From: Peptostreptococcaceae bacterium pGA-8
GTDB lineage: Bacteria; Bacillota; Clostridia; Peptostreptococcales; Anaerovoracaceae
Length of the DNA stretch: 64,000 bases
Direction of reading: 5' to 3'
Assembly: GCA_900112915.1 (NCBI GenBank)
Contig: FONK01000001.1
Span: 1 to 64,000, forward strand
Part shown: positions 34,244-61,163 of the stretch, piece after piece
Numbering within the stretch: position 1 is the first letter of the stretch
Layout of the letters: every line of letters starts with the position of its first letter
Notes under the pieces: generated by a model
Database searches by the model: none
What the model was told of the DNA's origin: nothing
What the model saw: only the letters and a program-made list of their open reading frames with translations
Made by a program: the position numbers and the translations under genes

Positions 34244-34272
34244 TATCAGCAATAAAAAGATAGGAGGTTACG

Positions 34273-36589: not shown

Positions 36590-36606
36590 GAGTTTTGAAA
36601 AAGTCT

Positions 36607-36656: not shown

Positions 36657-36856
36657 GAAAACTTTTAAACTTTTGTAGAAAAGAAAAAACTCAGGATTTC
36701 TTGGCTGAATTGCTTATGCCGATTCTTATGCTTTCTCTGTGATAGTCATAAGAGCTTATTAGTAAAAGTATTATTTTCAGTGAGATAGCAAGCATATACT
36801 TTTTGACCACAGTCAAAAAAGTAGGCTTGTAAGCTGGTAATTCAGCTTAATCAATT

Positions 36857-44048: not shown

Positions 44049-44182
44049 ACAGAAGTGTTCTGTACATAACATGAAATAATCCCGTAATAATAGCCTGCAC
44101 GGAATAATAAAAATTATAATAGGGCTTGACAGAACGAAAATGAACTATTATAATACAAATATACAGTTCAAATACGAACTGT
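44049..44182. promoter_or_regulatory. IME2 divergent regulatory region
   Basis: Perfect palindrome ACAGAAGTGTTCTGT (44049-44063) on the repressor side; TTGACA (44126-44131), 17-base spacer, TATAAT (44149-44154) for xis-int; perfect inverted repeat ACAGTTC-N6-GAACTGT (44163-44182) just after the -10. AGAAC half-sites recur around the -35. The motif differs from that in IME1, as expected for different repressors. Confidence 0.75.
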
Positions 44183-44274
44183 TAGAACGCAAGATATTTA
44201 GATTGACGCTCGTCCTATCTCAAGACATGGATGCAGAACCTTGCAAAAACTATGAATTGAAAGGAGGGCTAAAA

Positions 44275-44469
44275 ATGCAAAAGGTATTCATGACAGCAAA
44301 AGAAGTTCAAGATTTTTTAGAAGTCAGCAGAACGACTGCATATCAGTTGATAAACGAAATGAATCAAGAACTGACAAAGCTCGGCTATCGAGTACAAAGA
44401 GGTAAAGTGAATCGACAGTATTTCATGGAAAAGTATTGTTATGGAAATGAAGTTAGAAAAGAGGTGTAA
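44275..44469 (+). CDS. xis: Excisionase-like HTH protein
   Basis: 64 residues, HTH (MTAKEVQDFLEVSRTTAYQL) and basic wing (VQRGKVNRQYFMEKY). The start at 44275 has AAAGGAGG; the open frame extends upstream through the promoter but is not coding there. Homologous to the IME1 gene at 32456 and placed directly before the integrase. Confidence 0.83.
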   Translation: MQKVFMTAKEVQDFLEVSRTTAYQLINEMNQELTKLGYRVQRGKVNRQYFMEKYCYGNEVRKEV

Positions 44470-44471
44470 AG

Positions 44472-45596
44472 GTGGGTGCATATAGAGATGAAAATAAAAA
44501 TGGCACTTGGTACTGCAAGTTCAGTTATGTGAATTGGAAAGGGGAAAAGTTATATAAGAAAAAAAGAGGATTTTCAACAAAGAAGGAAGCTTTGAATTGG
44601 GAAAAAGAGTTTCTATCACAACAAGCCGGGACGGTTGAAATGACATTTAGGGAATTCTTTGAACTGTATAAAAGAGATAAAAAGCCACGTATTAGAGAGA
44701 ACACATGGCGAACTAAAGAAGCAATCGTTATGACTAAAATAATGCCATATTTAGGAGATTTGTTAATGAATGAAATTAGCAATGTAGCCATTATACAGTG
44801 GCAGAATGAATTGATGAAAATTAAAGATGATAGAGGTCAAACATACTCACCGACTTATCTTCGAACAATACATGCTCAACTTAGCAGTATCCTAAATCAT
44901 GCTTGCAGATATTATAGTTTGAAAACCAATGTGGCAAGAGATGTTGGCACTATGGGAGAAAAAGAAGCTGATGAAATGTCGTTCTGGACACAGGAAGAAT
45001 ATGAATCATTTATTGAAGTGATTAAGGACAAGCCACAGTCGTTTTATGCATTTGAAATTCTTTATTGGTGTGGACTTAGAATGGGAGAGCTTCTTGCACT
45101 GACCAAAGAAAAATTTGATTTCAAGACTGGAACTATCAAAATTGATGAATCGTTGCAAAGAATTGATGGAAAGAATGTTATAACTCCACCTAAAACAAAA
45201 AAGAGCATTAGAAAAGTTGTTATGCCTGATTTCTTGGCAGAGGAAATCAAAATTTATCTGGATGGTTTTTATAAATTAAAGCCGAAAGACCTAATATTTA
45301 GTTTTTCTAAGAGTTTTCTACATCATGAAATGGATAGAGGCTCTAAGAAAGCCAATATAAAAAGAATAAGAGTGCATGATTTAAGACATTCCCATGTATC
45401 CCTGCTAATTGAACTGGGATTTTCTGCTACAGCTATTGCAGATAGAGTAGGGCATGAATCAATTGATATAACTTATAGATATGCACATCTGTTTCCGAGT
45501 AAGCAAAAAGAAATGGCGGTTTCACTAACACAGGTTAGGGCAAAATCTCAAAATGATTGGGAAGATTTATTGAAAGAGGATGAAGATGATGTTTAG
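44472..45596 (+). CDS. int: Tyrosine integrase of IME2
   Basis: 374 residues with AP2-like arm-binding N-terminus, core-binding domain and catalytic residues in CGLRMGELLAL, HDLRHSHVSLL, GHESI and the Tyr near YAHLFPS. It shares the domain plan of the IME1 integrase but differs at many positions, so it may use the same or a related target. GTG start after GAGGTG. It overlaps the following RHH gene by 17 bases. Confidence 0.92.
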   Translation: MGAYRDENKNGTWYCKFSYVNWKGEKLYKKKRGFSTKKEALNWEKEFLSQQAGTVEMTFREFFELYKRDKKPRIRENTWRTKEAIVMTKIMPYLGDLLMNEISNVAIIQWQNELMKIKDDRGQTYSPTYLRTIHAQLSSILNHACRYYSLKTNVARDVGTMGEKEADEMSFWTQEEYESFIEVIKDKPQSFYAFEILYWCGLRMGELLALTKEKFDFKTGTIKIDESLQRIDGKNVITPPKTKKSIRKVVMPDFLAEEIKIYLDGFYKLKPKDLIFSFSKSFLHHEMDRGSKKANIKRIRVHDLRHSHVSLLIELGFSATAIADRVGHESIDITYRYAHLFPSKQKEMAVSLTQVRAKSQNDWEDLLKEDEDDV

Positions 45597-45951
45597 ACCG
45601 GAGTCATTGCAAAGAAGAACAAAGCAGATTAAATCAAATAATAAAAAGAATGAAGAAAATAGAAAGCGTAACCGTATTTTGAATTTTAGAGTTTCAGAGG
45701 AAGAATATGATCTGATAAATAAGCAAATTGAAATAAGTGGGTTATCAAAACAAGAGTATTTCATACAGCTACTTGGAGAACATCAAATCAAAATTATAGC
45801 TGACTACAGAGTATTAGATGCTATATCAAAAGAGATATTCCAGTTTGCAAAAGTGGTTAAAAAGTTCGGGAAATTAAATGAAGAAGAGCAAGATGTTTTG
45901 CTGTATATTTTAGAGATTTATGAAGAAATTAAACAAGAAAAAAGCCTTTAG
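45580..45951 (+). CDS. RHH-type accessory protein
   Basis: 123 residues, shorter homologue of the IME1 protein at 33716: basic N-terminus, LNFRVSEEEYDLINKQIEIS and GLSKQEYFIQLLGEHQ as ribbon-helix-helix, helical tail ending KQEKSL as in IME1. ATGs at 45580, 45586 and 45589 are possible starts; AGAGG favours the later two. Its stop lies inside the first of the conserved hairpins. Confidence 0.6.
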   Translation: MKMMFRPESLQRRTKQIKSNNKKNEENRKRNRILNFRVSEEEYDLINKQIEISGLSKQEYFIQLLGEHQIKIIADYRVLDAISKEIFQFAKVVKKFGKLNEEEQDVLLYILEIYEEIKQEKSL

Positions 45952-46028
45952 CCAAAAGACCAAAGGCAAGATGAAAGTACAACTTGGTATTTCATCCCTG
46001 ACAAGATTATTCTATCAGGTTGTACTTC
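45944..46028 (+). other. Conserved tandem hairpins before the primase gene (IME2)
   Basis: GCCTTT (45944) with AAAGGC (45962); AAGTACAAC (45975) with GTTGTACTT (46019-46027); inner CCTGA/TCAGG stem. Stems are identical to IME1 (34158-34243); substitutions lie in the loop and bulge. Confidence 0.65.
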
Positions 46029-46057
46029 CGTCAGCAACATAAAGATTGGAGGACAAA

Positions 46058-46981
46058 ATGATAAAAACAGAAAAGTATAAACAAAATATTCCAATGGAAT
46101 TAAGAGAATATAAACAGTGGTTATGGTTTAAGAAGATTAGGAAAATGGATTTGAAAGGAAGAGAAAAAACTCTCAAGATTCCAGTAAGTCAAATTACCTT
46201 GAAATCAAGCGATTGGAATAATAAAGAAAACTGGGCAGACTTTGAAACAGCAGTTAATAATATAGAAAGTAGTGGTTGTGATGGATTGTCTTTTGTATTA
46301 AGCAAGGATGATCCATTTCTTTGTATCGACTTGGATAATGTATCTCATGATATGAGAGAAATGTTTTGCAGAGATTTTCATGACACATATATTGAAACGT
46401 CTCAATCCGGCAAAGGACTTCACATTTTTGCAAAAGGGAAAATTGCTTATAATTTCAATAACCAAATTGAGAAAGTGGAAATGTATCAAAATAACAGATG
46501 TATTGCTATGACGGGGAATAGTGTTGATGGAACGCTAAATAACATCATAGACAAGCAAAAGGAGATTGATAAATACTATGAATGCTTTGCACCAAAAAAG
46601 AGCATTAGAGAGCAAATAAAAGCATATCAATCAGATAATGATTTACTGCCTGATGCACCTATAATTATAGAAACGATGTGCAAGCATAATACAAAAGCTA
46701 AAGGATTGTTTGAGGGAACTATCTCAAGTGGTGATGACAGTAAAGATGATTTCCTATTACTACTATTATTAAATAGCTACACACATGGCAATGAGGTGTT
46801 GATGAAAGATATATTTCTAAAATCTGCCTTAAATCGTATTGATGATAAGAGTAAAAGAAAAAATGAAGCTGCTTATATCAGATATTTGGAGGATAGTATT
46901 AAAAAAGCAATTCAGTATGGGAATCAAAGATATTGGGATTATAACTATCACAGAAAAAGTGTAGGTGATAGTCGTGACTGA
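46058..46981 (+). CDS. Primase-polymerase (AEP/NrS-1-like) replication protein
   Basis: 307 residues, close homologue of the IME1 primase: LCIDLDN metal site, SGKGLHIFAKG, MTGNS. The start is set at 46058, six bases after GGAGG; an ATG at 46046 contains the site. It overlaps the VapE gene. Confidence 0.82.
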   Translation: MIKTEKYKQNIPMELREYKQWLWFKKIRKMDLKGREKTLKIPVSQITLKSSDWNNKENWADFETAVNNIESSGCDGLSFVLSKDDPFLCIDLDNVSHDMREMFCRDFHDTYIETSQSGKGLHIFAKGKIAYNFNNQIEKVEMYQNNRCIAMTGNSVDGTLNNIIDKQKEIDKYYECFAPKKSIREQIKAYQSDNDLLPDAPIIIETMCKHNTKAKGLFEGTISSGDDSKDDFLLLLLLNSYTHGNEVLMKDIFLKSALNRIDDKSKRKNEAAYIRYLEDSIKKAIQYGNQRYWDYNYHRKSVGDSRD

Positions 46982-48365
46982 TTGGTTGAAATTTAATGAC
47001 GATGAACTGTCGGATTATCTTAATAGAGATTTAGAATACACAGATAAGGGACAAATAAAGAGTAACACAACCAATATCATCACGGTGTTAGTAAATCCAC
47101 TATTTTGCAGAGAAAAACAGATGATAGACGGAACAATTTTCTTTGATACTTGTAGCATGACAGTCAGGTTTTTTGGAACTTTGAAAGGTGAAAAGCAGAA
47201 AGAAAATGAGATAAGAAAATGGAACGATCACTTAACCAACCTTTTAGGGGTAGAGATAGAAAGGGAATTTGGCATTAAGTATTCAAAAAATAGAATGGAT
47301 GATGCCATAACCTTTATTGCTCATAAAAGGGCGATAAATCTTCCTGCTATGTATATGAAATCTCTTGCGTATGATGGTGAGGGTTATATATCTAAATTGC
47401 TTCCTAAATACCTTGGAGCAGAAGATACAAAATTAAATGCCTGGATTATGGAGCATATGCTAGTTGGTATGGTAAAAAGAGTTTTTAATCCCGGATGCAA
47501 GTTTGATGAGCTGATGGTTCTTACGGGAATTCAAGGTGTAGGTAAAACCAGCTTTATAGAGAAGCTGGCTTTATTTCCTGAATGGTATTGTTCCTTAAAC
47601 AATATTAAGGGCAAGGATGCAGTCAGTAATCTTGTTGGAAAAGTTGTAGTGGAATTGGAAGAATTTGTAGCTCTTAGGAATGCGAAAAGTGCAGATGAAG
47701 CGAAGCTGTTTATCTCTGCAAGAACAAGCACTGTAAGACTTCCATACGAAAGATTTTCTGCTGATGTAAAGAGAACTTGCATATTGATTGCAACTACCAA
47801 TGATGCAACTTTTTTAGGAGACTTCTCAGGCGAAAGAAGATATCTACCTGTGAAAGTGAACAGTGAAAATATTGAATTACCAATCATGTACGATATAGAA
47901 AAATTTCCTGTACTGGAAACTATCACAAGAGAAGAGCATCGTAATATTGTTCAACATGATTTTGAGGGAGCTATCGCAGAAGCGGTATATCTTTATGAAA
48001 ACAAACTTTATGATTTCTATTTACCTAAGGAGTTGCGTTCAGATTTGGATTTTGTTATTCAAACCCATAAGAGTGAGAACAGGCATGTACAAAATTTCTT
48101 GGACTTTATGGAATGGAAATCTACAAAATCAGACACTCCAGATTTGCTATGCTCTGCTGAATTTACAAGTAGATACCCTGAAACCAATGAAAAAGTATTT
48201 TCGGAATTGATGGCAAACGAAATGGTATATGACTGGAAACTTGAACCATCTGTAAAAAGCAAGAAGGTAAGAATTGACGGAGTGGTTCGGGTTAGTAAGA
48301 AGTTTTATAAACGAAATATTAATACAGATTTTGTTGAGGTTAATGCAGAGGACATACCATTCTAA
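46974..48365 (+). CDS. VapE-like replicative ATPase/helicase
   Basis: 463 residues. Walker A GIQGVGKTSF, Walker B-like VVELEEF and SGERRYLPV as in IME1; several stretches of 20 or more residues are identical to the copy at 35198. GTG at 46974 is chosen (AGGTG upstream, and the protein then starts TDWLKFND like its sister); the open frame begins at 46965. Confidence 0.85.
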   Translation: MTDWLKFNDDELSDYLNRDLEYTDKGQIKSNTTNIITVLVNPLFCREKQMIDGTIFFDTCSMTVRFFGTLKGEKQKENEIRKWNDHLTNLLGVEIEREFGIKYSKNRMDDAITFIAHKRAINLPAMYMKSLAYDGEGYISKLLPKYLGAEDTKLNAWIMEHMLVGMVKRVFNPGCKFDELMVLTGIQGVGKTSFIEKLALFPEWYCSLNNIKGKDAVSNLVGKVVVELEEFVALRNAKSADEAKLFISARTSTVRLPYERFSADVKRTCILIATTNDATFLGDFSGERRYLPVKVNSENIELPIMYDIEKFPVLETITREEHRNIVQHDFEGAIAEAVYLYENKLYDFYLPKELRSDLDFVIQTHKSENRHVQNFLDFMEWKSTKSDTPDLLCSAEFTSRYPETNEKVFSELMANEMVYDWKLEPSVKSKKVRIDGVVRVSKKFYKRNINTDFVEVNAEDIPF

Positions 48366-48382
48366 TAGTTTTGAAAAATTCC

Positions 48383-48432
48383 GCTACCGCTACTTTGCTA
48401 CCCGTAAGATAAGGTGGTGAGGTAGTGGTAGC
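48383..48432 (+). other. 20-bp wobble-conserved hairpin behind vapE (IME2)
   Basis: 5' arm identical to IME1 (48383-48402); loop changed; 3' arm GGTGGTGAGGTAGTGGTAGC (48413-48432). All three 3'-arm differences from IME1 (two transitions creating G-U pairs, one changing a G-U to A-U) keep pairing. Confidence 0.7.
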
Positions 48433-48629
48433 GATAATTTTTAACTTTTATAGAATTTACCTAAACGAAGCATACAGTATTTCTGTGATAGTTAAAAGTA
48501 TGAAAAAGCTTGATAAATGGAATGCAAAGTTCACTTTAGTAGCAAGCACAGTAAGTGTGTGTACACTTACAGAAAAATGACTTTAGAAATCAAATCGGAG
48601 ATTTAATTTCGAGCAACATTTTTAGCTTG

Positions 48630-48651
48630 TTAGGGAGAACCCTAAGACCCC
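48630..48651 (+). other. Candidate oriT core of IME2
   Basis: TTAGGG-AGAA-CCCTAA-GACCCC, identical to IME1, 28 bases before the MobC-like start. Kept although no relaxase gene follows. Confidence 0.6.
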
Positions 48652-48679
48652 AAAACTTAATAGAAGGAGGATATTTAAG

Positions 48680-49021
48680 ATGGAAAATAGAAAAAGAAAT
48701 GTAAGGTTGAGATTTGATTTAACAGATAAAGAAAAAGAATTATTTGAAAGGAAAAAGGAAGAAAGCGGAGCGAAAAGAATGAGTCATTTTATACGAAAAA
48801 CAGTTTTAGAAAAGGAAATTTATGAAGTTGATTTGGAGCCTTTGAGAGATTTATACGGAACATTATCCGTTGCCACAAATAAAATAAATCAGATTGCCAA
48901 GAGGATAAATCAAACAGGAGTTATTTATAAGAGTGATATTGATGATATGAAGAAATCTATTGAAGAGTTCTCAAAAGAAGTGTGGGATATACATTCGTTG
49001 TTGCTTAAGAACATCAAATAA
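48680..49021 (+). CDS. mobC: MobC-like mobilisation protein
   Basis: 113 residues: RHH-like N-terminus (RLRFDLTDKEKELFERKKEE) and MobC core ATNKINQIAKRINQTG. It is distinct from the IME1 MobC but has the same core motif and position relative to the oriT-like repeat. AGAAGGAGG before ATG. No relaxase follows, so it could only serve a relaxase supplied in trans. Confidence 0.78.
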   Translation: MENRKRNVRLRFDLTDKEKELFERKKEESGAKRMSHFIRKTVLEKEIYEVDLEPLRDLYGTLSVATNKINQIAKRINQTGVIYKSDIDDMKKSIEEFSKEVWDIHSLLLKNIK

Positions 49022-49109
49022 TTGAAGATTTAATTTTATATTAAATAACTATCAGTAGATCTAAAATTCATAAATTAGAACTGATATATTGAAAATATTA
49101 GACCGATAT

Positions 49110-49126
49110 GGTATAGTAATTATACC
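49110..49126. promoter_or_regulatory. Palindrome upstream of the HTH/type I R-M genes
   Basis: GGTATA-N5-TATACC, 20 bases before the HTH start. Likely the operator of that regulator. Confidence 0.5.
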
Positions 49127-49145
49127 GTTAAGAATGGAGGGAGCC

Positions 49146-49418
49146 ATGATGTCTAACTTTTTTGTTAATGATAAATTTAAAGTCCTTGAATGTATGGAAC
49201 AGAGACAAATTCAAGTTAATGATGAATCAATAGTTAAATTATCGCAGCAAGAGATTGCAGATATATTAGGTTTTACGAAAACAAAAGTAAATAATATAGT
49301 TAGAGAACTGAAGGAAAATGGGTATTTGACTCAGCTTAGTTCAAGAGGAAAGTATATATTAACTGATATTGCAAATGAAGAAATTAATAAAATGAAGAAT
49401 GAGGAGGCGACAAAATGA
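49146..49418 (+). CDS. Winged-helix regulator, probable controller of the R-M gene
   Basis: About 90 residues with a Crp/MarR-type winged helix (LSQQEIADILGFTKTKVNNI, then ENGYLTQLSSRGKYIL). GGAGGGA precedes paired ATGs at 49146/49149. Its stop overlaps the start of the R-M gene, so it probably regulates it, using the palindrome at 49110. Confidence 0.75.
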   Translation: MMSNFFVNDKFKVLECMEQRQIQVNDESIVKLSQQEIADILGFTKTKVNNIVRELKENGYLTQLSSRGKYILTDIANEEINKMKNEEATK

Positions 49419-50431
49419 ACACAAATACAATGCCATTAGAGGCAGAAACAAGAGTGCTTATTGACAGAAGCCTCGAAAATCTTGGTTGGAAATTCAAAGG
49501 GAAAGATAAGAATGTATTTTTTGAACAACCTAGAACAGAATCAGAGAGAAAAAAGTTGGATGGCAAGCGTCCGGATTATGTTTTATATTCTAAGGATAGT
49601 GATAAACCGCTAATCATTATTGAGGCTAAGAAAAAAGGATCACGTATCGATGCTGCATTAGAACAAGGTATTAGTTATGCGAGAGCATTAGAAGCACCAT
49701 TAGTATTTGCTACGGATGGAGTATTTTGTAAAGCGTTCCATACTGTTGCAAATCGTGCACCAATATTAAATGGTGAAGAAGTTGATGAATTTATTCGTGA
49801 AGCTCTTGCACTACGTTATTTAGCTACATACGAGGTTAATACTGTAAGTCCTAAGGTTCAGTATGACAGAAAGGAACTTATTAGAATTTTTGATGAAGCA
49901 AATAATATGCTTAGAGGTGAAGGCTTACGTGCTGGTATTGAACGCTTTGGGGAGTTTGCAAATATACTTTTCTTAAAACTTATCAGTGAAAGTGAGCAAA
50001 TTAAAAGAGAAAGTGGAATAAAAACAAATTTTGATATTGCTTGTAGTTGGGATAGTATAAAAAATATTCCGATTTCAACACGTATAGAATATATAAATAA
50101 GACTGTTTATGAAAAATTGAATAACCTTTATAAAACAGATATATTTACTCCTCTTCAAATACGAGACACAAGTATTCTAAAAGAAATTATGGATAAATTG
50201 GATCCTTTAATGCTTACGGATGTTGATAGTGATGTTAAGGGAGATGCCTTTGAATATTTTCTTAAAGCTTCAACTTCTACCAAAAATGATTTAGGTGAAT
50301 ATTTTACTCCAAGGCATATTGTGAAAACAATGGTGCGTTTGGTCAATCCGCAAATAGGTGAAACTATTTATGAGAAGAAGATTAAGGAATGGATACACAA
50401 ACCTACACTTTATTCTCTTCAAAGTGCTTAA
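49415..50431 (+). pseudogene. Type I restriction-modification gene (HsdR_N-HsdM fusion), 3'-truncated
   Basis: 338 codons remain. Residues 1-150 are a restriction-type PD-(D/E)xK domain (RPDYVLYSKDSD, LIIIEAKKKG). Residues about 160-310 are the HsdM N-terminal helical domain, leading into the methyltransferase start GEYFTPRHIVKTMVRLVNPQ and GETIY. Where the AdoMet motif DPFCGTGGF should follow, the sequence turns to an unrelated EKKIKEWIHK and stops. The catalytic domain is missing, so the gene is inactive as it stands. The break, about 50370, coincides with the start of the serine-recombinase element. Confidence 0.82.
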
Positions 50432-50797: not shown

Positions 50798-52444
50798 ATG
50801 GGAAAAGAAGTAATTAAGCTTGAACCGAAGTTCCCACAACTCATCAAAGTTGAGAAATTAAAAGTTGCTGCATATGCGAGAGTGTCAACAGAAAAAGATG
50901 AGCAGCATAATAGCCTAGAAGCGCAAAAAGATTATTTCTTGAAGTATATAAAAAATGAACCGGAATGGGAGTATGTAGGATTATATTATGACGATGGTAT
51001 TTCAGGACTTAGTAAAAAGAATAGAGATGGTTTTAATAGCCTTGTGAAAGATGCACTTGATGGGAACATAGATCTAATTGTCACAAAATCAATAAGCCGA
51101 TTTGCTAGGAATACTGTAGATACCATCAGCACAATTAGAAAACTAAAGAGGGAAGGAGTAGGTGTATTTTTTCAAAAAGAAAATATTTATACTTTGGATA
51201 GCAAGAGCGAGTTTGTTTTAACTCTTATGTCCAGTTTTGCTCAAGAGGAATCTAGGTCTATTTCAGAAAATTGTACATGGGGACAGAGAAAAAGATTTGC
51301 TGATGGTAAAGTGTCAATTCCATTTGCAAGGTTTTTAGGATATGACAGAGGTGAAAATGGAGAACTTGTTGTCAATGAGAAAGAAGCTAGAATAGTTGAA
51401 TATATTTATTCTTTGTTTATTTTAGGATTTACATTTAGTGAGATAAAAAGTGCGCTTGAATTCTATAAAATCAAGTCCCCAGGAGGAACTGATAGTTGGA
51501 ATCATCAAAATATAAAATCAATATTAACCAATGAAAAGTACAAGGGAGATGCACTATTACAGAAATCCTTTACTGTCGATTTCATGACTAAAAAGAAGAA
51601 AAAGAATGAAGGTGAACTTCCTATGTATTATGTGGAAAATAACCATCAAGCAATTATTCCTAAGAAGATTCACGATTATGTTCAAAACAAAATGAATAAC
51701 GATGTAACAATAAGAGTTTCTCATTTAGGAGGTAAAATTATCTGCGCCAAGTGTGGTGAATATTTTGGTCGCTTTAAAATTCATCCAGATTGGTATGGCG
51801 GCAGATGGGCTTGGAGATGTAGAAACAAATACAGCAAAAGCAATAAATGTGTAATGAGACACCTTTATGATGATAATGTCCATCAAGCTATAAATGTTGC
51901 TGCATTTGAAGTTCTTTCAGCTAGAAAAGATCTAATTACTTATGTCAGCAAGATTACTGGTATTACAAGCAGAAAGATAAATAAGATAATAAAGGAAATG
52001 GGCGTTGATTTTACAGGGAATTATCAAATACTAGAAAATATTATTGATAGCATCAAGGTTAAAGAAAGCCATGATACTACTTTTTTATTTATTGATGGTA
52101 GCAAAGCAAAAGGCCATATATTTGGAACTGGAAAGACAAGAATAAAAGGTGTAAGAGAAGGTAAGACACATAACTATGGAAATAAAAGCATAAGACCAGA
52201 ACCAGAGCATTTTGATGAATTTGTTAAATGGCTAAAAGAAGAAAGCGGTCTATCAGAATCAACTCAGAAAAGCATAAGAAAAAGAACTAGACTTGCTCAT
52301 AGCATTTGCAAGTTAGACGATATTGAAGGGTATATTGAGAAACTTGAAACTAGGGCAAAGTATAAGAAACTGGATGATGGTGTAAAGTCGAATGTGAAGT
52401 ATGCGTTCAGAGTGTATTTTAGGTTTTTGGAGCAGTGTAAGTAG
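50798..52444 (+). CDS. Large serine recombinase
   Basis: 548 residues. The N-terminal resolvase domain has the catalytic Ser30 in YARVSTEKDEQHNSLEAQ and helix-E region SRFARNTVDTI. It is followed by the recombinase domain (about 190-300) and a zinc ribbon (CAKCGEYF, then WRCRNKYSKSNKC). The C-terminal 120 residues (from about 430) are an extra helical region. It probably inserted the element into hsdM. Confidence 0.92.
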   Translation: MGKEVIKLEPKFPQLIKVEKLKVAAYARVSTEKDEQHNSLEAQKDYFLKYIKNEPEWEYVGLYYDDGISGLSKKNRDGFNSLVKDALDGNIDLIVTKSISRFARNTVDTISTIRKLKREGVGVFFQKENIYTLDSKSEFVLTLMSSFAQEESRSISENCTWGQRKRFADGKVSIPFARFLGYDRGENGELVVNEKEARIVEYIYSLFILGFTFSEIKSALEFYKIKSPGGTDSWNHQNIKSILTNEKYKGDALLQKSFTVDFMTKKKKKNEGELPMYYVENNHQAIIPKKIHDYVQNKMNNDVTIRVSHLGGKIICAKCGEYFGRFKIHPDWYGGRWAWRCRNKYSKSNKCVMRHLYDDNVHQAINVAAFEVLSARKDLITYVSKITGITSRKINKIIKEMGVDFTGNYQILENIIDSIKVKESHDTTFLFIDGSKAKGHIFGTGKTRIKGVREGKTHNYGNKSIRPEPEHFDEFVKWLKEESGLSESTQKSIRKRTRLAHSICKLDDIEGYIEKLETRAKYKKLDDGVKSNVKYAFRVYFRFLEQCK

Positions 52445-52575: not shown

Positions 52576-55230
52576 TTAATTGCGGATTTTCTCAAAAACT
52601 TCAGGCATATTAAGAATTACATTTAAAGCCTCGTTTCTGACATTGTGGTTAGAACAGTCAATAAGAGATTTGCTTAATTTAATACCCTTATTTGACAATT
52701 CTATAATGTATTCTGGATGTTGCTTTATATATGATGCAGTTTCGCGACTAAATCCAATCCTTTGCAGCAAAATAGTGCTTGGATTTGTCGTACCATATTC
52801 AACATATTCATACCAATCATTATCAAATGAAGTTACTCCATGTATTCTTTTATACTCGTTTGAAAATTTCAAAAAATAATTTGATAGACTGAAAAGAATT
52901 ATGTTATCAATAACTTCAAGGGTATCTGCAAACAATATATTTCTAAATTCTTTTGTATCTTGATAATACGCCATTTGAGTTTTATTAATCCAGAAATTAT
53001 TAGGATTTTCCCTATGAAAGTCTATGCCTTTATTTATAATATTGCTTAATCCAAAGCCAGAAATCCACTGAAGTAGTAATACTCCGTACCATCTTAACTT
53101 TTTATGTTTTCCGTCAGTGATTTTACCTAGTGTTGAATATTCGTATTGCTCCCATTTGAAAATATCACAAAGTTTTTCAAGAAATTCCATTACATCATTG
53201 TACCTGAAATGACCTTCTTTTCTTTCTGGATAGTGAAGCCCATTTCTAATTGCCTCGGATAAATTTAATGATTGGTCTGCAGAAATATTTATGTCATCGT
53301 CTGGATGAAAATTATTCTCTTTTAGTTTATTTCTTATTGAAATTTCATCTTCAGAAGATAATAAATCAGAGAATGAACTGCGAACTAAGCTGCTGTTATC
53401 AGAAACAATATCTTTTGCCAATATCAAGCTAAATTTTCTTGTTAACTCATAAGATTCTTCGCTTTGTCTTTCATTTCGTTTTTTTATTTCTACATTTCCT
53501 GATTTTAATGTCTCGATGATATATTTTCTTTCTGGATTGGTTAGAACTCCGGCACCAGCTTCTACTGATAAAATTTGCTCAGGAACTTTAGTTTTTAGCA
53601 TTTCAATAAATTCTGATTCATCTGATTTATCGTCTTGCTCAGTTACGAATATAACATTACCATAGAGGTTATATTCAATTCGTCCGACTCTTCCAATAAG
53701 ATTTCTAAAGTCAACGGGAGTCATTTTACGTGTGAATATCTTTTTAGTAGTAATAAATAAGTTATCGGCTGGTAGGTTGACTCCTTCAAGTAAAGTGCTT
53801 GTGCAGAATAGTGTAGTAATTTTTCCTTTACGGAATAAATCTTCTATACGCATCCTAATTGACGAAGGCAGATAACCAATATGGTATGCAATACCTTTTT
53901 TAACCATTTCAGCCAAATAATAGTCTTTATGTACTGCACTAGAAATATCGCGAGATAAAACATCTAATTCTTTATCATTTAGTAGATTTAGCCTATTTGC
54001 AAAATTTTGAGCTGTTTGAACAGCCTTGTTTTTTGAATTAAAAAATACTATTGTTTGTCTATTACGAGATACCTCACTATTTCTATTGTTATATTCAATT
54101 ACATGTAAAAAATCCTCTAAAGTAGCATTTTTATCGTTTATTTTGGCTATATTGATAGGTGCTTCGGTATGAGGATTATATACAGAAACATCTTTGCCTT
54201 TAAGATCAAGTAAAAACTTGATTTGTGTAACAGGAGAAAAAGAGGTCTTTAGAGCTTTAAAATTATTTTTACTAATATCTGTTAATAGTCGCAAATACAC
54301 CTCTGGATTAGGAATATTTGGAGAGGCGAAAATAAACTTTGGTGGAGTATGTCGCTTATTTAACATATCTACAGTTTTATAATAAAAGGGAGCTCTGCTA
54401 TTTTTTGCTGATAGTTTATGAGCTTCATCAATAAATAAATAATCTATTTTAAGATTAGGATGTGCGATAAGCATATATAATAAGCGTTCGGGTGTAACAA
54501 TATATATGAAGTTATGCTCTCCCTCTAAAGCAATATCACTCGAAGCCGTAATTACTTTATAATTATGCTGCTCTAAAAGTTCATTAAGATCCTCACGAAT
54601 AATCTTTTGAGAGACTTCATTAATTAAAGCTTTTGTTGGTACAACTATAGCAAAATTTTTTCTTGCATTATTTTCGATTTGCTCTTTTATAAACATCCTC
54701 ATTAAGAAGGATTTACCCATAGATGTTGGAGCGGAGTAGCTAAAACACCTGTCGTTTAGATGATCGTATACTTGCTTTTGAGCCGATAGAAAATGCAAAT
54801 TTTTTTGAGATGGAATTCTTAAGTAATCTTTTTTGAATTCAAGATAAGCTTGGCTTAAAAAGAATGGTTCGTTAAAACTTGTACCTAAGATATTTATTCC
54901 ACGACTATTATCAGTATTTGAGAAGACAGAACCTCCAAATGCTTTGATACTATTGCTATGTGGAAATAGATAATTTAATAAAACAATAATCTCTTGAGCC
55001 CACATTTTCTGTTGTTCAGATTTTTCGTTATGGTTTGATTTTGAAAGCAAATCAGCAAAACGAAGTAAGTCATTGATTTCATTGTTATTTAATGTGTCTG
55101 TATTATCTGTAACTTGTAGAGTTTTCTTAGCATATGAAATCAAAGTTTTTTCATAAAGATTATTTAGATATGCGTTATTTTCTATATCATTAAAAAGTAG
55201 ATTACCAATTTTTACTTTATTATCACTCAT
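52576..55230 (-). CDS. hamB: Hachiman helicase HamB
   Basis: 884 residues, superfamily 2 DNA helicase. After a helical N-terminus come Walker A in SAPTSMGKSFL (near residue 170), PTKALINE (Ia), DEAH in FIDEAHKLSA (near 270), SPNIPNP (III) and the C-terminal lobe FCTSTLLEGVNLP with NLIGRVGR (motif VI, near 520). In Hachiman, HamB holds the nuclease HamA in check and releases it on sensing damaged or foreign DNA. ATG at 55230 with GAGG upstream; 13 bases after the hamA stop. Last gene of the operon. Confidence 0.85.
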   Translation of the reverse strand: MSDNKVKIGNLLFNDIENNAYLNNLYEKTLISYAKKTLQVTDNTDTLNNNEINDLLRFADLLSKSNHNEKSEQQKMWAQEIIVLLNYLFPHSNSIKAFGGSVFSNTDNSRGINILGTSFNEPFFLSQAYLEFKKDYLRIPSQKNLHFLSAQKQVYDHLNDRCFSYSAPTSMGKSFLMRMFIKEQIENNARKNFAIVVPTKALINEVSQKIIREDLNELLEQHNYKVITASSDIALEGEHNFIYIVTPERLLYMLIAHPNLKIDYLFIDEAHKLSAKNSRAPFYYKTVDMLNKRHTPPKFIFASPNIPNPEVYLRLLTDISKNNFKALKTSFSPVTQIKFLLDLKGKDVSVYNPHTEAPINIAKINDKNATLEDFLHVIEYNNRNSEVSRNRQTIVFFNSKNKAVQTAQNFANRLNLLNDKELDVLSRDISSAVHKDYYLAEMVKKGIAYHIGYLPSSIRMRIEDLFRKGKITTLFCTSTLLEGVNLPADNLFITTKKIFTRKMTPVDFRNLIGRVGRIEYNLYGNVIFVTEQDDKSDESEFIEMLKTKVPEQILSVEAGAGVLTNPERKYIIETLKSGNVEIKKRNERQSEESYELTRKFSLILAKDIVSDNSSLVRSSFSDLLSSEDEISIRNKLKENNFHPDDDINISADQSLNLSEAIRNGLHYPERKEGHFRYNDVMEFLEKLCDIFKWEQYEYSTLGKITDGKHKKLRWYGVLLLQWISGFGLSNIINKGIDFHRENPNNFWINKTQMAYYQDTKEFRNILFADTLEVIDNIILFSLSNYFLKFSNEYKRIHGVTSFDNDWYEYVEYGTTNPSTILLQRIGFSRETASYIKQHPEYIIELSNKGIKLSKSLIDCSNHNVRNEALNVILNMPEVFEKIRN

Positions 55231-55243
55231 AATCAAACCTCAC

Positions 55244-56164
55244 TTATATCAGTAAATCTTCCATTATTTTTCTCTTATCATTTTCTGCATCATTGAATGG
55301 AACGATATAGAAATAAAATGAGTGGGTATTCAGATTTAAGTTGTTTATTTTTGCTGTAATGTATGAAGAGTGTTGTTTTATATCGGTTTGCATTTTTGCA
55401 TCCATAGCTTTACGAAAATCAATGTTTGATCTACCATTAGGATTTAATCCTAGAGAGTATCCTAGAAAAACTCCATAGGCTGTATCATTTATTACTGGGT
55501 TATTTCCTTGTGGGAGCATAATATCTATGATTCTTTTTGCAGTATTGGTATCAAAAGATTCTTCGAAAATGCGATTATCTACAAGCATTGCACTTGTATT
55601 GTTAGTATCATTCTCGATTCTTTCAATCGTAGCAAACGCGTTATCTATTGCTGAACGTATGTCTCCATTTATTTCAGATGAACCAAATACTGTCTGATAA
55701 CATGGAATAGGGGATCCTGGGAGTTCTAGCAAATGGATAGCATCACTATATTTACCAAAACTAGAAGACGAAGCATTTAATTCAACCTTACTAAATAGCT
55801 TTGGTGCTCCAAGAATATCTTCCATAAATGCATACAGAAGAATTTCTCCTAATTCATTGCCAGTACCCTTAGTATCAGCAGGACCATTTTTTTTCATAAT
55901 TCTGAGAGCTTGAATTCCAATGGAATGGGGATTAGTAGTTTTGCTTAACTTTTCAACTTGAGCTCTTGAAAAGACATATTCACTTATTGTTCCAACCAAA
56001 AAGTCATTTAAATTGGTATAAGTAAATAAATTGCTACTAACAGCAAGATGAAAGAGGCGTAGTTGTTCGGGATTAACTAGGCCTAGGGTTTCATTATGCT
56101 TTACCTCTGTGAAAATAGAGTTAAGGCTATTTCCTTTTATAGATTTATTTATTACAGAACTCAC
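55244..56164 (-). CDS. hamA: Hachiman nuclease HamA (DUF1837)
   Basis: 306 residues of the DUF1837 family. PD-(D/E)xK-like elements are in order: Glu in NELGEILLYAFMEDILG (near 106), Asp in GKYSDAIHLLE (near 138) and Glu in VFGSSEINGDIRSAI (near 160). HamA is the effector nuclease of Hachiman and degrades DNA when freed by HamB. GTG start with AAAGGAGG. It lies 31 bases after the Res gene, in the same transcript. Confidence 0.85.
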   Translation of the reverse strand: MSSVINKSIKGNSLNSIFTEVKHNETLGLVNPEQLRLFHLAVSSNLFTYTNLNDFLVGTISEYVFSRAQVEKLSKTTNPHSIGIQALRIMKKNGPADTKGTGNELGEILLYAFMEDILGAPKLFSKVELNASSSSFGKYSDAIHLLELPGSPIPCYQTVFGSSEINGDIRSAIDNAFATIERIENDTNNTSAMLVDNRIFEESFDTNTAKRIIDIMLPQGNNPVINDTAYGVFLGYSLGLNPNGRSNIDFRKAMDAKMQTDIKQHSSYITAKINNLNLNTHSFYFYIVPFNDAENDKRKIMEDLLI

Positions 56165-56195: not shown

Positions 56196-59048
56196 TTATT
56201 CAAACTTACCATCTGTATCAAAGATATGGTTTAACTCTTCATCTGTCATTGCTCTGGATACTTTATCGCGAACCGAACTCATAGACATATCAAGTCTCTT
56301 AAAACGTAAATTTCCAGCAGCATCTTTTCCTTTTCTGATAAGCTCAATCCTACCAACTCCTGGATTTTGTCTTGCATACTCTGCAAATCCTTTAGCCTTG
56401 CCAAGATTATCATTAAAAGCTGGATTATGTGGTTCTAGCACATCGATGATAAATTCATCTGGCATCACTGGATCTTTGCGGATTACTATGAAATCTGGAT
56501 ATGTTGGCTTTGTATCACCATCTATCTCGTAAGGAATACATAATGACCAAGATGCTCTAGGTGGATTTCTAAGCCAACATATGAAATCATCTCGATTAGA
56601 TTCTTCATCTAAAACGCCAGATTCCCAGTCATTTAATTTCATTTTTGCAAATCCATCATCATTCACAAAAAGGTGATCATAGTATGCTTTGCCATCTGGG
56701 TCATGGGCGACGGTAATTGTTTCAGGAAGACGGAAATTATGTTTGCTTATTACATCTCCATCAGAAACTATGCGGTCGTATTGCTTACGGTAACTATCTG
56801 TTAATTTAGTCATGTATCTACGGTATTTATCATTTATTTCATGATATTTGAATTTTGCGTATTTGTTTAAATTGGCAATACATTCATCGTCTGCTGAAAA
56901 TAGTATTACATCAATCTTTAGGTTTACTAAAAGATCTGGATTAAAATACGAATTCAGGTATTCATTTCCAATACCTTCAGATCCAAGACGTGTTTCTGCT
57001 AATCTAAATTGTCTATCAATATCTGCATCAGTTGTAAAAAACGAGTTCTCTCCATAACTTGATTTCATTGATTCCCCAAATACATCAAAGACTTGTGTCG
57101 ATAACTTGAATTCTTTAGCTTTTTGTACAAGTTCATCGTATACATTTCGAGTCTTAAGATTTTCAACATAACTATTTATTAGTTGCACAATTTCCTTATG
57201 TGTTTCAGGTAAAACGTCTCTATCCATACTTGTTTGACTTAATAGGCGAGCAAGGCTAAACATTGATTTTAAGTAGTCATTAATTCGTATCTGTCTTACG
57301 TTGTAAGTCAATAATCCGGAATCATTTATTGCTTTTACTATTTTCTGACGATCTATGGTAGATGAACCAGTAAATTCATTATCCTCTATTATCTCATGAT
57401 CTTTAGTTAGAGTAGTTTTGCCACAATTATCATCTGAATTATTTGGCATAGATGATTCTATATCTGTCTCTACAGTTTCAGTGTTGCTATTATTACTTGG
57501 AATTAAACTGTTATTTTCTTTGGAAGAAATATTTGTAGCTGTTGAAACATTATTTTTTTCTGGTTGATCACTAAAATTGCTATTATCAAATCCAGCTCCT
57601 GAAAAATCAAAATTCTGTTGACCAGGTATCTGCAGTGTAATATGTGAGGCTCTTCTTTTTGGAGTTATTGTTAATGTTTCAGTTTTTTTGTTTTCAATAG
57701 ATTCACCATATATATCTGTTGGAATGCTGCCACCTTCTTCTGACTGTAAAGCCTTTATTACATCATCAACAGTTTCTTTTTCAAAGAAAGGCAGATATAG
57801 ATGCACATCATTTAATGTATCATCTACTTGAATGTGCATTTGCATAGGTGTTCTTATCATTCTTCCTAGAAGCTGCGCAATATATGTAGCATCTTTAGCC
57901 CTACGAAAACTCATCATCGTTTCTGCTCTTGGACAATCCCATCCAGTTGAAAGATTTTCCTTGAAGAATACTACTTTGATTTTTTTATTTTCCTGAATTC
58001 GTGAAGGTTCTTCATATGGAACTTCTAGACCGGAGATTGTTATTGAAGAGTCAGTTTCACCAAATGTATGAACTACTTCTCCTTTAACAAAGTTCAAACC
58101 TGTTCGTTCTTCAATTTTTTTTAAGCATTCATCTAAATCTGTAGCAGAAATTGTTGATTGTGTACCATTTTCAACTTGAACGACAAAAATAGGATTAACA
58201 TAAGCATAATGTTGTTCATAGCAGTACTGCGTCCAGTGATCCCATTTATCCTTCCAATCATCAGCAGCTGCCTGAAGAACGGCCATTGATTTATTTACAG
58301 AAGATTCTTCAGAATATGATATTACGATTCTATCTTTTAACAGGCCAGAAGAACGGACTTCTTCAGGTGACACTACAACTTTATGAATAGTAGATGACGT
58401 CCCCTCAACAAGTGCATTAAAACGTTCGGAAGTTGCTGACATGCCAATAACGACTGGCATAGCAGGGAGTTTATCTTCCTGGCTGCCTTTTAAGAACTTT
58501 TGCATAATTGTTGTTGCCTTCGCTGCATCTTTGTCTTTCATTCCTCGATGTGCTTCATCGATAATAAAATATAAACGGTTTGATTTTTCCGTAATTGTAT
58601 TTCTTAATGTTTCCCAAATGGTGAAAGAACGACCGTCGCCAGTCTTTGTAAGGTTTTTACCTTTTCCTATTTTTTGAGTGTTTAAGAAATATATATGGCC
58701 GTCTTCTAAAAACTCTGCATCAAAATTCTCGTCATTTATAGTTTGACATTGACCAAGACGGATTTTGTCAGCTTTTGTATCGATTTTTAATTTAGATTGT
58801 TCGTTTAATTCTGGAGAATCAGATAGCCATACAAAAATAGCATCAGTTTGTTCTGGATAGTTTTCATCTCCGAACAGAATGCTTTCTATAAACGCAGTCA
58901 TAATGATAGTTTTTCCAGCACCGGTTGGAGCTGTGAAAGAAATTACTTGCGGTGTATGCGTTCTTTGATAACTGCCTAAAGCTTCTGCCGTATTAATACG
59001 GAGATGTTTAAGGGCGAGTTCTTGAAATGGAAATAATGATACTTTCAT
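56196..59048 (-). CDS. Type III-like restriction subunit (Res) helicase-nuclease
   Basis: 950 residues. Walker A APTGAGKT at 40-47, DEAHRG near 165, SATSERF near 205, helicase C-lobe GWDCPRAETM and LLGRMIRTP, then a long linker (about 480-580) rich in Ser, Asn and Thr. The C-terminal nuclease-like region has YPDFIVIRKDPVMPDEFIID then VLEPH, where the usual D-x-K lysine is replaced, so cleavage competence is uncertain. It needs the Mod subunit encoded four bases upstream. Confidence 0.82.
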   Translation of the reverse strand: MKVSLFPFQELALKHLRINTAEALGSYQRTHTPQVISFTAPTGAGKTIIMTAFIESILFGDENYPEQTDAIFVWLSDSPELNEQSKLKIDTKADKIRLGQCQTINDENFDAEFLEDGHIYFLNTQKIGKGKNLTKTGDGRSFTIWETLRNTITEKSNRLYFIIDEAHRGMKDKDAAKATTIMQKFLKGSQEDKLPAMPVVIGMSATSERFNALVEGTSSTIHKVVVSPEEVRSSGLLKDRIVISYSEESSVNKSMAVLQAAADDWKDKWDHWTQYCYEQHYAYVNPIFVVQVENGTQSTISATDLDECLKKIEERTGLNFVKGEVVHTFGETDSSITISGLEVPYEEPSRIQENKKIKVVFFKENLSTGWDCPRAETMMSFRRAKDATYIAQLLGRMIRTPMQMHIQVDDTLNDVHLYLPFFEKETVDDVIKALQSEEGGSIPTDIYGESIENKKTETLTITPKRRASHITLQIPGQQNFDFSGAGFDNSNFSDQPEKNNVSTATNISSKENNSLIPSNNSNTETVETDIESSMPNNSDDNCGKTTLTKDHEIIEDNEFTGSSTIDRQKIVKAINDSGLLTYNVRQIRINDYLKSMFSLARLLSQTSMDRDVLPETHKEIVQLINSYVENLKTRNVYDELVQKAKEFKLSTQVFDVFGESMKSSYGENSFFTTDADIDRQFRLAETRLGSEGIGNEYLNSYFNPDLLVNLKIDVILFSADDECIANLNKYAKFKYHEINDKYRRYMTKLTDSYRKQYDRIVSDGDVISKHNFRLPETITVAHDPDGKAYYDHLFVNDDGFAKMKLNDWESGVLDEESNRDDFICWLRNPPRASWSLCIPYEIDGDTKPTYPDFIVIRKDPVMPDEFIIDVLEPHNPAFNDNLGKAKGFAEYARQNPGVGRIELIRKGKDAAGNLRFKRLDMSMSSVRDKVSRAMTDEELNHIFDTDGKFE

Positions 59049-59051
59049 GGT

Positions 59052-61163
59052 TTACCTCCCCGTATTTATCCTAAAATTATCTAAATAATCTCTGTATAAC
59101 TGATATGATTTTTCAATGTTTAAATGTGAAATCATTTCTCTATATCCGCCTATTGAGTCAGTAACAATGAAGACGTTGTTAATAGAACTTTCTGTATTTA
59201 TTTTCTCTTTGAACTCAGAAAATTCGTGTTCATCTATAAGAACAGCAAAGTCATTTTCTGGAAGTATTAACATTGACGGCAAGTTTTTAGTCGACAGTTC
59301 TGGGCACTTGCCTATACATCCGGTTTTCATCCATAAAACAGGTAAAAGTTCTTTGAATTGTCGTCCTAACGCGACAGCATTTTTATCAAGAAAACCAAGT
59401 TTAAAGAAGGCGGCATTAGATTTGAAACCGTCTGACATATCAAGGGTTGTATCAAGGTATGTTCCATTTAATGGCTTTTCGTTTATATCTATCCCTTTAA
59501 TAGAACATACTGTTCGTGGCCAAGTTACATAATGGGCGATACCTAGTTTTTCCCATTCTGGATCACCTGGTTTATATCCGCCTTTTCTCAATTTTTTTGA
59601 TTCTTCATCAGATACCTCGTTATTTGTAACCATAATACATCTACGGTTTCCTCCATCTTTTGCATTTAATAAATTAATTGCATGAAGTGTTGTACCAGAT
59701 CCAGCAAAAAAGTCTAAAACAAGTGCCTCTGGTTTATTAGCTACAAAAAAATTCAATGTATCTCTTACTGCATAGAGGGATTTTGGAAACGAAAAATGTC
59801 TTTGTTGAAGTATTTTAATTAGTAAGTTTGAACCGTTAACACCTGCATCGTGAGAAGAAATATTCCAGCTGTTTCCAGGAATAAAACGAATACTTGTGTT
59901 TGTATTATCACAATCATCAAAAACAATTCCGTTATCAGTTTTAATGAAATTTCCATATTCACCAGATAGTGTACGATTTCGATCTCCACTTTTTACATAA
60001 TATATAGCAGCACGATTGTTTTTTATAGGTCCACACTTCAAGAAACCTTGTTCTAGAAGTTTATTTGCATTTTCCGGAGTTATTTGCCAGCGCCCTTCAC
60101 TTCCATTTTTACGCATTGGCCATACAGGAATCGTATTTTGAGGTGTTTCATTTACACTTTCTTTATTTACATCAAGAGCAATGGAAGAACCTATAGAGTG
60201 GATTTTGTTGTCTTCAGTACTTACATAAATAGGGTAAAAGCATCCAGGACTATTTTTTCTAAAACCAGTTGAATCTGTTCTGCTTAAGGATGTCCAGTGC
60301 ATTTTCCCACGTACGGTTTTCTTGTTATCTTGTTGTACAAGCCATTCAGAACTTAATTCTAATGCATTTGGAGATGATTTACCTAAAAATACAAAGAAAA
60401 TATACTCGTTAACTCTGCCAAATTCACCTTCTCTAGCTACAGAACGGACATTAATAACGCTTGTAACCATTTGAATTCTTGACGAAGGGAAAAGTTCCTC
60501 TAATAAACAACCAAGATGTAAATACTCTTTTTCATCTATGGTTACTATTAGAACGGAATCTGACGAATTGAGTAACTTTTTTGCCAATCTAAGTCTTTTA
60601 TCCATCATTGATAACCATTTGCTGTGCCTATATGAATCAGAAGAATCTACATAGTCATTATTGTACTTCCAGTCTCTCGCACCAGAATTGTAGGGTGGAT
60701 CGATATATATACAGTCTACTTTTTCAGCATATAAGTACTCTAGTAATTGAAGTGCATGATAATTGTCTGCTTCAATTAATGTGTGCCAAAGATTACTATC
60801 TGGAGCGTTACATACAGAGTCGATTGGTTTAAGATAAGGGTATATTGCCTCACCGAATTCAGCAATTGTAACAAGATCTTTTAATGGCAATTCGACTGTT
60901 TCTTGAGTGCTCTTATCTAGACAAATAGCAGTGTTTTCAACAATATCTTTCACTATGTAAATAGCATTAATCTTTTTATCCTTAATTGCTACTTTGCTAC
61001 CAACATGAACTGGAACATCAAACAGAGGAGTGCATTCAGGCATATGTTCCTCAAAAACAAGACCAAATTTTTTTTGTTTTGATAGCTTATCTATTTCTTC
61101 TTGTATTCTGTTTTTCAAATCAGAATCTTGTATTTTATTTATTAAATCGTTAATTACAGACAT
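59052..61163 (-). CDS. Type III-like modification methyltransferase (Mod)
   Basis: 703 residues, beta-class amino-methyltransferase: catalytic DPPY at 155-158 (CIYIDPPYNSG) precedes the AdoMet motif DFFAGSGTTLHA (near 490). A large target-recognition region lies between them. Modifies adenine N6 (or cytosine N4) at an unknown site and guides Res. The ATG overlaps the end of the upstream HTH gene by 14 bases. Size and order Mod-Res are those of type III R-M systems. Confidence 0.88.
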   Translation of the reverse strand: MSVINDLINKIQDSDLKNRIQEEIDKLSKQKKFGLVFEEHMPECTPLFDVPVHVGSKVAIKDKKINAIYIVKDIVENTAICLDKSTQETVELPLKDLVTIAEFGEAIYPYLKPIDSVCNAPDSNLWHTLIEADNYHALQLLEYLYAEKVDCIYIDPPYNSGARDWKYNNDYVDSSDSYRHSKWLSMMDKRLRLAKKLLNSSDSVLIVTIDEKEYLHLGCLLEELFPSSRIQMVTSVINVRSVAREGEFGRVNEYIFFVFLGKSSPNALELSSEWLVQQDNKKTVRGKMHWTSLSRTDSTGFRKNSPGCFYPIYVSTEDNKIHSIGSSIALDVNKESVNETPQNTIPVWPMRKNGSEGRWQITPENANKLLEQGFLKCGPIKNNRAAIYYVKSGDRNRTLSGEYGNFIKTDNGIVFDDCDNTNTSIRFIPGNSWNISSHDAGVNGSNLLIKILQQRHFSFPKSLYAVRDTLNFFVANKPEALVLDFFAGSGTTLHAINLLNAKDGGNRRCIMVTNNEVSDEESKKLRKGGYKPGDPEWEKLGIAHYVTWPRTVCSIKGIDINEKPLNGTYLDTTLDMSDGFKSNAAFFKLGFLDKNAVALGRQFKELLPVLWMKTGCIGKCPELSTKNLPSMLILPENDFAVLIDEHEFSEFKEKINTESSINNVFIVTDSIGGYREMISHLNIEKSYQLYRDYLDNFRINTGR

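Follow-up and report, generated by a model that had tools for sequence, protein, structure and literature searches.

Why does a restriction-modification (R-M) gene end exactly in front of the motif with which its methylase would bind AdoMet? This question is raised by a locus in Peptostreptococcaceae bacterium pGA-8, within the first 64,000 nucleotides of contig FONK01000001.1 (hereafter the window). A first-pass annotation, made from the letters of the window, described a nuclease fused to HsdM that breaks off at GETIY, and proposed a site-specific insertion that would switch the gene off reversibly. The reading that we favor, with a probability of about 0.87, is that a phage of the Ca. Heliusviridae type was integrated by a large serine recombinase (LSR) at a GA dinucleotide in the motif I codons (Y|DPFCGTGGF) of a single-chain restriction-modification-specificity (R-M-S) gene. 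Within this reading, we count as established the insertion, its ends at the level of single bases, the open frame regained when the flanks are joined, the presence of phage genes, and the finding of the same attachment arm and class of target in other phages.

Results

The split gene and its missing half

The target R-M operon probably begins with a winged-helix protein gene (49089-49418, + strand), since in five of the eight intact homologues that were aligned, similarity at the DNA level extends back at least to this gene. The next open reading frame (49415-50431, + strand) encodes 338 aa, in which Pfam recognizes an HSDR_N nuclease domain and no more of the 311-position N6_Mtase profile than positions 2-52, in agreement with the fusion of a restriction-type nuclease to HsdM that had been described. 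Residues 1-319 belong to the gene proper (49415-50371, ending in GETIY), whereas the last 19 ('EKKIKEWIHK...'; 50374-50431, + strand, from the ORF translation) are read-through into the inserted element. That homology ends after GETIY was also borne out. Among the best 80 of 130 named homologues, 78 continue at this point into DP-x-C-G-(T/S)-G, one continues into DPFSGTGG and one is cut by a contig end; none of these 80 is interrupted at GETIY/motif I, and a few have stops elsewhere in the gene.

The closest of these 80 homologues, 94% identical over the left half, is found in Peptoniphilus vaginalis, the lowest listed is 42% identical, and matches at 83-92% come from records, in many cases MAGs, with the labels Clostridia, Spirochaetia, Paraprevotella and Muribaculaceae. 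Because close homologues are spread over records of Peptoniphilus and all these groups, the R-M-S gene seems to have been widely transferred. At the DNA level, its two halves are 90% and 88% identical to P. vaginalis (blastn). No close homologue of the left half was found among 60 relatives, of which 16 have a weak match; the best of these by E-value is 30% identical, and the top identity is 45% over 67 residues.

The first-pass annotation had suggested searching for the missing hsdM half beyond position 64000. A profile search of the assembly found the rest of the N6_Mtase domain (profile positions 49-308) at contig position 106014, on the same contig and strand, with the continuation of the gene 55,651 bp downstream of the break. 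The far flank does encode the missing hsdM part, the observation on which the insertion claim had been made to hang. Since the right half carries two Methylase_S stretches in addition to N6_Mtase (Pfam), the target is, as predicted from its domains, a single-chain nuclease-methylase-specificity enzyme. Nuclease, N6-methylase and target-recognition domains stand in one joined frame, as in a type IIG-like or fused type I enzyme, and this frame is open over 981 aa and 77.5% identical in full length to a 983-aa P. vaginalis protein.

Ends of the insertion and the attachment site

When eight of the 80 homologues were compared with the contig by blastn, the left match ended at 50373 and the right match started at 106023 in every case. 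The two ends have GA in common and nothing beyond it, and the element between them measures 55,651 bp. Homologue alignment places the GA crossover core of attL at 50372-50373 (+ strand) and its attR copy at contig 106023-106024. The core occupies the identical place in the motif in the related viral contigs L165, L230 and L233 and at both ends of the element in G157. The left attP half-site, GA-N17-GGATACAC (50372-50398, + strand), forms an imperfect inverted repeat with the right half-site, TTGTATCA-N17-GA, whose last base is contig 106024; six of the eight outer positions agree. The phage attP would then be a single 52-bp imperfect inverted repeat, TTGTATCA-N17-GA-N17-GGATACAC, and inverted-repeat arms about a core are the form expected of a serine-integrase attP. 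Because the arms form a repeat of this type, both outer ends can be assigned to one element. The 2-bp core, the imperfect inverted repeats and the flanks that rejoin to an intact empty site are the marks of a temperate phage integrated by an LSR, and base-level ends and a restored frame now support the proposal that an element was inserted site-specifically into the methylase portion of an R-M gene.

With nuclease and N-terminus on one piece and the SAM motif and specificity domains on the other, and with no ATG, GTG or TTG in the right piece between an upstream in-frame stop and motif I, there is, as far as the gene structure tells, almost no doubt that the R-M enzyme is inactive. The left piece is devoid of both the SAM motif and the specificity domains.

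Surroundings of the R-M operon

Just upstream of the operon, window positions 44140-49021 encode a tyrosine integrase, two NikA-like proteins and a VapE-domain protein, which together look like a mobilizable-satellite-like module; a second stretch, 75% identical to the VapE part, lies at 34147-36680. Downstream of the split operon, contig 110021-110252 holds short pieces with 77-83% identity to window 47851-47982 and 48909-49003, which may mean that remnants of one satellite lie on either side of the R-M operon. The operon may be cargo of such a satellite element. Further along, DDTFGRGGFL and a short ORF continue in frame from a second TTGTATCA-N17-GA at contig 151918, and two short serine recombinase genes lie 1.7 and 5 kb beyond this arm; another insertion of this kind may have left it as a scar. 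The arm matches at 38326 (+) and 12987 (-) seem fortuitous.

The prophage and its cargo

Gene content identifies the 55.65 kb of inserted DNA as a prophage of the Ca. Heliusviridae type. It encodes terminase, portal, protease, major capsid, tape measure, distal tail, holin, endolysin, DNA polymerase and anti-repressor. The accessible part of the 2022 description lists as genes shared by Ca. Heliusviridae those for DUF2800, DUF2815, DNA polymerase I, a VRR-NUC nuclease, an SNF2-like helicase, a terminase subunit, portal, Clp protease and major capsid, the sixth of which ('...subunit') was taken as the large terminase subunit (PMC9226167). All nine were found in the element by Pfam, VRR_NUC with 20.6 bits, below its cut-off of 23.8. 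For this count, the ssDNA-binding family PF10991 is what we take to be DUF2815.

Within the window, the left end of the prophage is occupied by defence genes on the minus strand. HamB helicase (52576-55236; PADLOC, E=0) and the adjacent HamA (55244-56164; Pfam and PADLOC) constitute a Hachiman system, and are followed by the restriction subunit Res (56196-59048) and the methyltransferase Mod (59052-61163) of a type III R-M system, both found by Pfam and PADLOC, and by a small helix-turn-helix protein of this defence block (61150-61422; a weak, mad1-like PADLOC match). A Rha-like/anti-repressor gene starts at 63631 on the plus strand and runs past the end of the window at 64000. Outside the window, up to attR at 106023, lie phage replication, head, tail and lysis genes, the recombinase genes LSR2 and LSR3, and an ars cluster. 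The last lies between LSR3 and attR (contig 102736-105879), and its ArsR-type regulator, ArsP-type permease, LMWP-type protein and SBF-family transporter can be read as a putative ACR3-type arsenic cluster. The viral contigs L165 and L167 hold other DNA at this place (in L167 a gene that is MerR-like by eye), which seems to be a cargo slot.

The phage also carries a ParB-domain N4/N6 methyltransferase with a neighbor that appears C5-type by eye (contig pair 71152-72414 and 72395-73987), and may protect its own DNA independently of the broken host system. An IMG/VR phage, G061, of which 80,000 of 81,141 bases were read, has the stretch from 60453, inside Mod, to 102639, at LSR3, in pieces at 85-95% identity (60453-61163 at ~95%); because this stretch starts inside Mod, the type III system travels with the phage. 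PV036460, deposited as a 'Ca. Heliusvirales' phage, shows partial DNA similarity of 63-70% to HamB and LSR2/LSR3. The idea that defence block and phage are two nested elements was set aside, since the inverted-repeat arms unite the outer ends and G061 has the stretch from Mod to LSR3 in the same order.

The same junction in other phages

Three serine recombinases are encoded in the element: LSR1 (548 aa; 50798-52444, + strand) near attL, and LSR2 (contig 99300-101075) and LSR3 (contig 101057-102634), a twin pair at the other end. All three contain Resolvase, Recombinase and Zn-ribbon domains with a YARVS motif, and LSR1 is 54% identical to LSR3 over ~370 aa. LSR1, which starts 424 bp after the junction, is the recombinase that the first-pass annotation had placed some 400 bases on, correctly as to position but probably wrongly if it is cast as the main integrase. 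It is with the twin LSR2/LSR3 that the attR-side arm and a methylase target are found again in other phages; the insertion would therefore be catalyzed by LSR2 and/or LSR3, and a role as main integrase is improbable for LSR1.

In L165, which shares 95% identity with our element in LSR2 and 96% in LSR3, the identical right arm is followed by a different hsdM at exactly DPACGTGGM. The LSR3 gene of this contig (6001-7575) has one in-frame stop, at codon 421, which may be a sequencing error or decay. With more distant LSR3 proteins (62% and 61%), L230 and L233 show TTGTATCA-N17-GA followed by DPACGTGGM and DPCCGSGGF, respectively. Both gene halves can be seen in G157, in which a type I hsdM surrounds a 55,807-bp element with the same core (...INKVY|DPACGSG...), and in record G159 a single contig shows a left hsdM end (L213, L333) as well as a right end (L266).

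Scanning of viral contigs for the arm joined to motif-I codons gave 18 contigs, all 18 in frame with a methyltransferase motif I and of several gene types (L260 and L264 look like one gene), and the same scan with a reversed arm gave none. Because the scan was built on motif-I codons, this agreement shows that the junctions are real and says nothing of target preference. The PF02384 match starts at profile position 44-51 in 16 of the 18, two of these below the cut-off, and the remaining two contigs keep only 12 and 18 residues. A twin LSR pair is present in 12 of the contigs, a partial match in one and none in five; the pair can adjoin either gene half among these phages. A scan of viral contigs for the left junction (hsdM codons plus left arm) returned eight matches, our own being the sole methylase among them, and the stretches read of G160 and G165 yielded no such junction. 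Partial PF02384 matches, among those listed for 119 family genomes, suggest other split genes, for example in G124, G073 and G086. Contigs L060-L070 were scanned for methylase motifs only.

An attP-like palindrome occurs in 43 contigs; one of them, L244, is the junction in G061. There (L167/G061, near 36.6 kb), the right arm of our phage joins the arm of another twin-LSR phage head to head in an attP-like junction, which we infer is best read as a tandem insertion of two related phages at one site.

Targets beside relatives of LSR3

A survey of targets was made on 80 viral loci, the best 80 of at least 595 LSR3 relatives. The sequence TGTATCA-N17-(GA or TC) occurs downstream of LSR3 relatives at 35 places in 34 of these loci, a count in which related IMG/VR contigs are included and which is not one of independent events. 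For 200 permuted arms, the mean is 1.8 places (maximum 11), and spacings from 10 to 24 other than 17 give 1-11. No recognizable arm lies downstream in 40 of the 80 loci, many of which end within a few hundred bases, and at least one true end, that of G157 (L221), whose arm reads TTGTATTA, was missed, so that the survey is partial.

From the 34 loci, L185 and L193 (no usable sequence past the arm), L167 (abutting another phage), and L186 and L240 (flank not open) were dropped. The remaining 29 readable phage ends lie in 19 DNA methyltransferases, seven serine recombinases and three genes of no recognized family (L199, L227, L235); with these last ten, the lineage is not exclusively methyltransferase-targeting. 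The 19 include type I-like, type III and SNF2-type enzymes and rest on Pfam or PADLOC in 12 cases (L176 weakly), on PF02384 in the same record in two (L233, L213), and on motif reading by eye in five (L179, L183, L200, L218, L222). Left-hand pieces, which are mostly short, match no Pfam family in eight of ten, including L179, L200 and L222. L203, L217 and L241 come from one genome. A looser arm (TGTATCG) added the recombinases L220 and L224 for the tree only, and L215, L216, L234 and L237, also with looser arms, were set aside as likely chance. Six of the resulting nine recombinase targets were called by Pfam and three (L168, L220, L224) by reading, which makes one of the seven in the survey a call by eye.

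In pieces with a readable profile, the break points within a family agree to the residue. Left pieces of N6_Mtase end at profile position 51 (L177, L182) and right pieces start at 52 (L165, L230); in one PADLOC profile for type III enzymes, left pieces end at 122 (L175, L178, L194) and a right piece starts at 123 (L187). Among the recombinases, right pieces start at position 39 of PF00239 in all five that match it (L169, L184, L201, L203, L217), and L196 is split at a different point. A sister clade, comprising these five and, by eye, L168, L220 and L224, enters serine recombinase genes before D(D/E)GxSG; the broken genes are probably those of other mobile elements.

In a tree of 31 LSR3 proteins, from which L222 was left out, all nine recombinase-targeting members fall on one side of a branch with support 100/100, and the three target labels need three changes versus 10.6 when shuffled. 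Methylase subclasses are not clustered (type I-like, eight changes versus 8.5 shuffled; type III, six versus 5.6) in an earlier tree, which contained several badly extracted rows and supported the recombinase-targeting group at 91/0. Two integrases that are 95.7% identical enter a type I/IIG-like gene (L176, a weak profile match) and a type III mod (L178), and two that are 98.5% identical enter a type I methylase (L230) and an SNF2-type methylase (L241). Because near-identical integrases enter unrelated families, this is the strongest sign that one specificity may cover unrelated methylase families. With a good number of related phages sitting likewise in other DNA-methylating genes, methyltransferase insertion looks like a habit of the lineage and not an accident.

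Discussion

Taken as a mechanism, LSR recombination at the GA dinucleotide inside the AdoMet-binding motif I codons would leave two gene halves 55.65 kb apart, and the integrases of this lineage would have been selected for DNA methyltransferase genes, which may serve as targets that occur widely, are mobile and can be broken safely. Type I, type III and single-chain enzymes depend on the M part for cutting, and a break in the methyltransferase should therefore be tolerated. Since Hachiman and type III R-M systems come with the phage, lysogeny would exchange one defence for others. The broken R-M gene may be a safe, common landing site, or its loss may rid the cell of resident restriction, with the phage contributing Hachiman and an R-M system of its own.

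How firmly do other explanations compete with phage integration by LSR2 and/or LSR3? Ordinary gene decay or misassembly has in its favor that the genome is a draft in 24 contigs, but it faces sharp ends with a 2-bp overlap, a rejoined frame that is open, and other records with the identical geometry, and we consider it practically negligible. Because eight of eight homologues give identical breaks and the joined 981-aa frame is open, a product of chance or assembly error would be very unlikely. LSR1 could itself be the integrase here and LSR2/LSR3 serve another role: it lies nearer to an att site than the twin pair, it has the YARVS motif and all three LSR domains, and the circular form would put all three LSR genes around attP on one strand. 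Yet LSR2/LSR3 recur with identical arm and target, the target class tracks LSR3, and LSR1 matches no Pfam family beyond residue 365. In viral contigs, its only full-length match is our own element, and seven others reach residue 363-380 at 51-53%, a comparison in which the far ends of the closest relatives, L165 and G061, lie beyond their contigs. On balance, an integrase role for LSR1 is unlikely. The claim that the gene was switched off reversibly held in part, in that the gene is split and its frame would be restorable on precise excision. In a true reversible switch (active lysogeny), the prophage would excise without killing the cell and restore the R-M enzyme, as in the case of A118, whose serine integrase interrupts comK precisely and leaves a restorable frame. 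The base-precise insertion and the frame restored on rejoining fit this possibility, and Ambroset 2016, in the portion available, suggests likewise for ICEs in hsdM, citing A118/comK (PMC4701971). However, a phage with head, tail and lysis genes would normally be expected to lyse the cell on excision, and two adjacent phages probably account for the attP-like site in G061; we therefore consider a reversible switch quite improbable.

The reach of the phage-integration reading is a further question. A tentative extension, to which we give somewhat less than even odds, is that an attB written in conserved methyltransferase motif codons would offer a landing site in almost any restriction system, that lysogeny would disarm this system and supply the phage Hachiman and R-M, and that the sister clade has shifted to recombinase codons. 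The motifs concerned are motif I (type I and single-chain enzymes), DPPYNTG (type III Mod) and EPSMGTG (SNF2 methylases). Targets may instead reflect dispensability only, being common, mobile and harmless to break, with no benefit from disarming restriction; we put the chances of this at about even. The second target class, serine recombinases, which are not defence genes, speaks for it, and phage from a lysogen without host methylation would be more exposed to restriction by sibling cells. Ambroset 2016, as far as accessible, argues that specificities evolved to minimise host impact (PMC4701971). Dispensability alone does not predict, however, that near-identical integrases enter type I-like genes at motif I, type III genes at motif IV and SNF2-type genes, and against it also stands the finding of Durrant 2022, in the sections available, of no LSR target enrichment in defence genes outside a multi-targeting clade (PMC10083194). 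If targeting of methylase motifs holds, these phages would remove host restriction by landing in the catalytic motif of the methylase and not by an inhibitor protein; scattered split hsdM and mod genes that pass for pseudogenes would be explained; and natural integrases would be at hand whose sites are predictable from protein motifs.

Comparison with known systems

The class of target is partly known, as ICEs and IMEs entering hsdM or SNF2 genes have been published. In the parts of these papers available, ICEs with serine-integrase triplets enter hsdM, mutT and traG (PMC4701971), and Tn1806-like ICEs enter hsdM, SNF2 and Eco57I-type methylases with TGGG/GGGA repeats (PMC12942858, PMC13006639). 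Our element is like Tn1806-like and triplet streptococcal ICEs in its multiple serine integrases, its split hsdM/adenine methylase gene and its very short direct repeats (PMC4701971, PMC12942858, PMC13006639). Unlike the Tn1806-like ICEs as described, which are conjugative, it is a phage, and its core is GA, placed at the Asp codon; no TGGG/GGGA was found at its ends, which share GA and nothing more. Our guess is that the Tn1806 repeat lies in the same motif, at the Cys-Gly-Thr codons. Type III mod and serine recombinase targets also set our phages apart from streptococcal ICEs as these are described in the text available. Similarly, IMEs of S. suis are reported in SNF2 (COG4646 methylase) genes (PMC7168690, in part), and share with our element a serine recombinase and an adenine methylase target, but they are mobilizable elements and ours is a phage.

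No report of a phage lineage specialized on methylase genes was found in a literature search that left subscription papers and preprints mostly outside. Our prophage resembles the Ca. Heliusviridae/Heliusvirales gut phages in having the nine shared genes of the 2022 paper, the main text of which, as available, has none of the words integrase, recombinase, methyltransferase or 'att site' (PMC9226167). The interruption of comK by A118 is likewise that of a host gene by a serine integrase, precise and with a restorable frame (A118/comK as cited in the available part of PMC4701971), whereas the target here is a defence gene. Finally, with one integrase lineage and several unrelated target genes, our phages are like the multi-targeting LSRs of Durrant 2022, as far as that text goes (PMC10083194). 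In that clade, DUF4368 occurs in 63% of members, whereas Pfam finds no DUF4368 in LSR1-3. The same survey reports no enrichment within or near anti-phage defence genes outside the multi-targeting clade, in its accessible part, with which the methyltransferase targeting proposed here would stand in contrast (PMC10083194).
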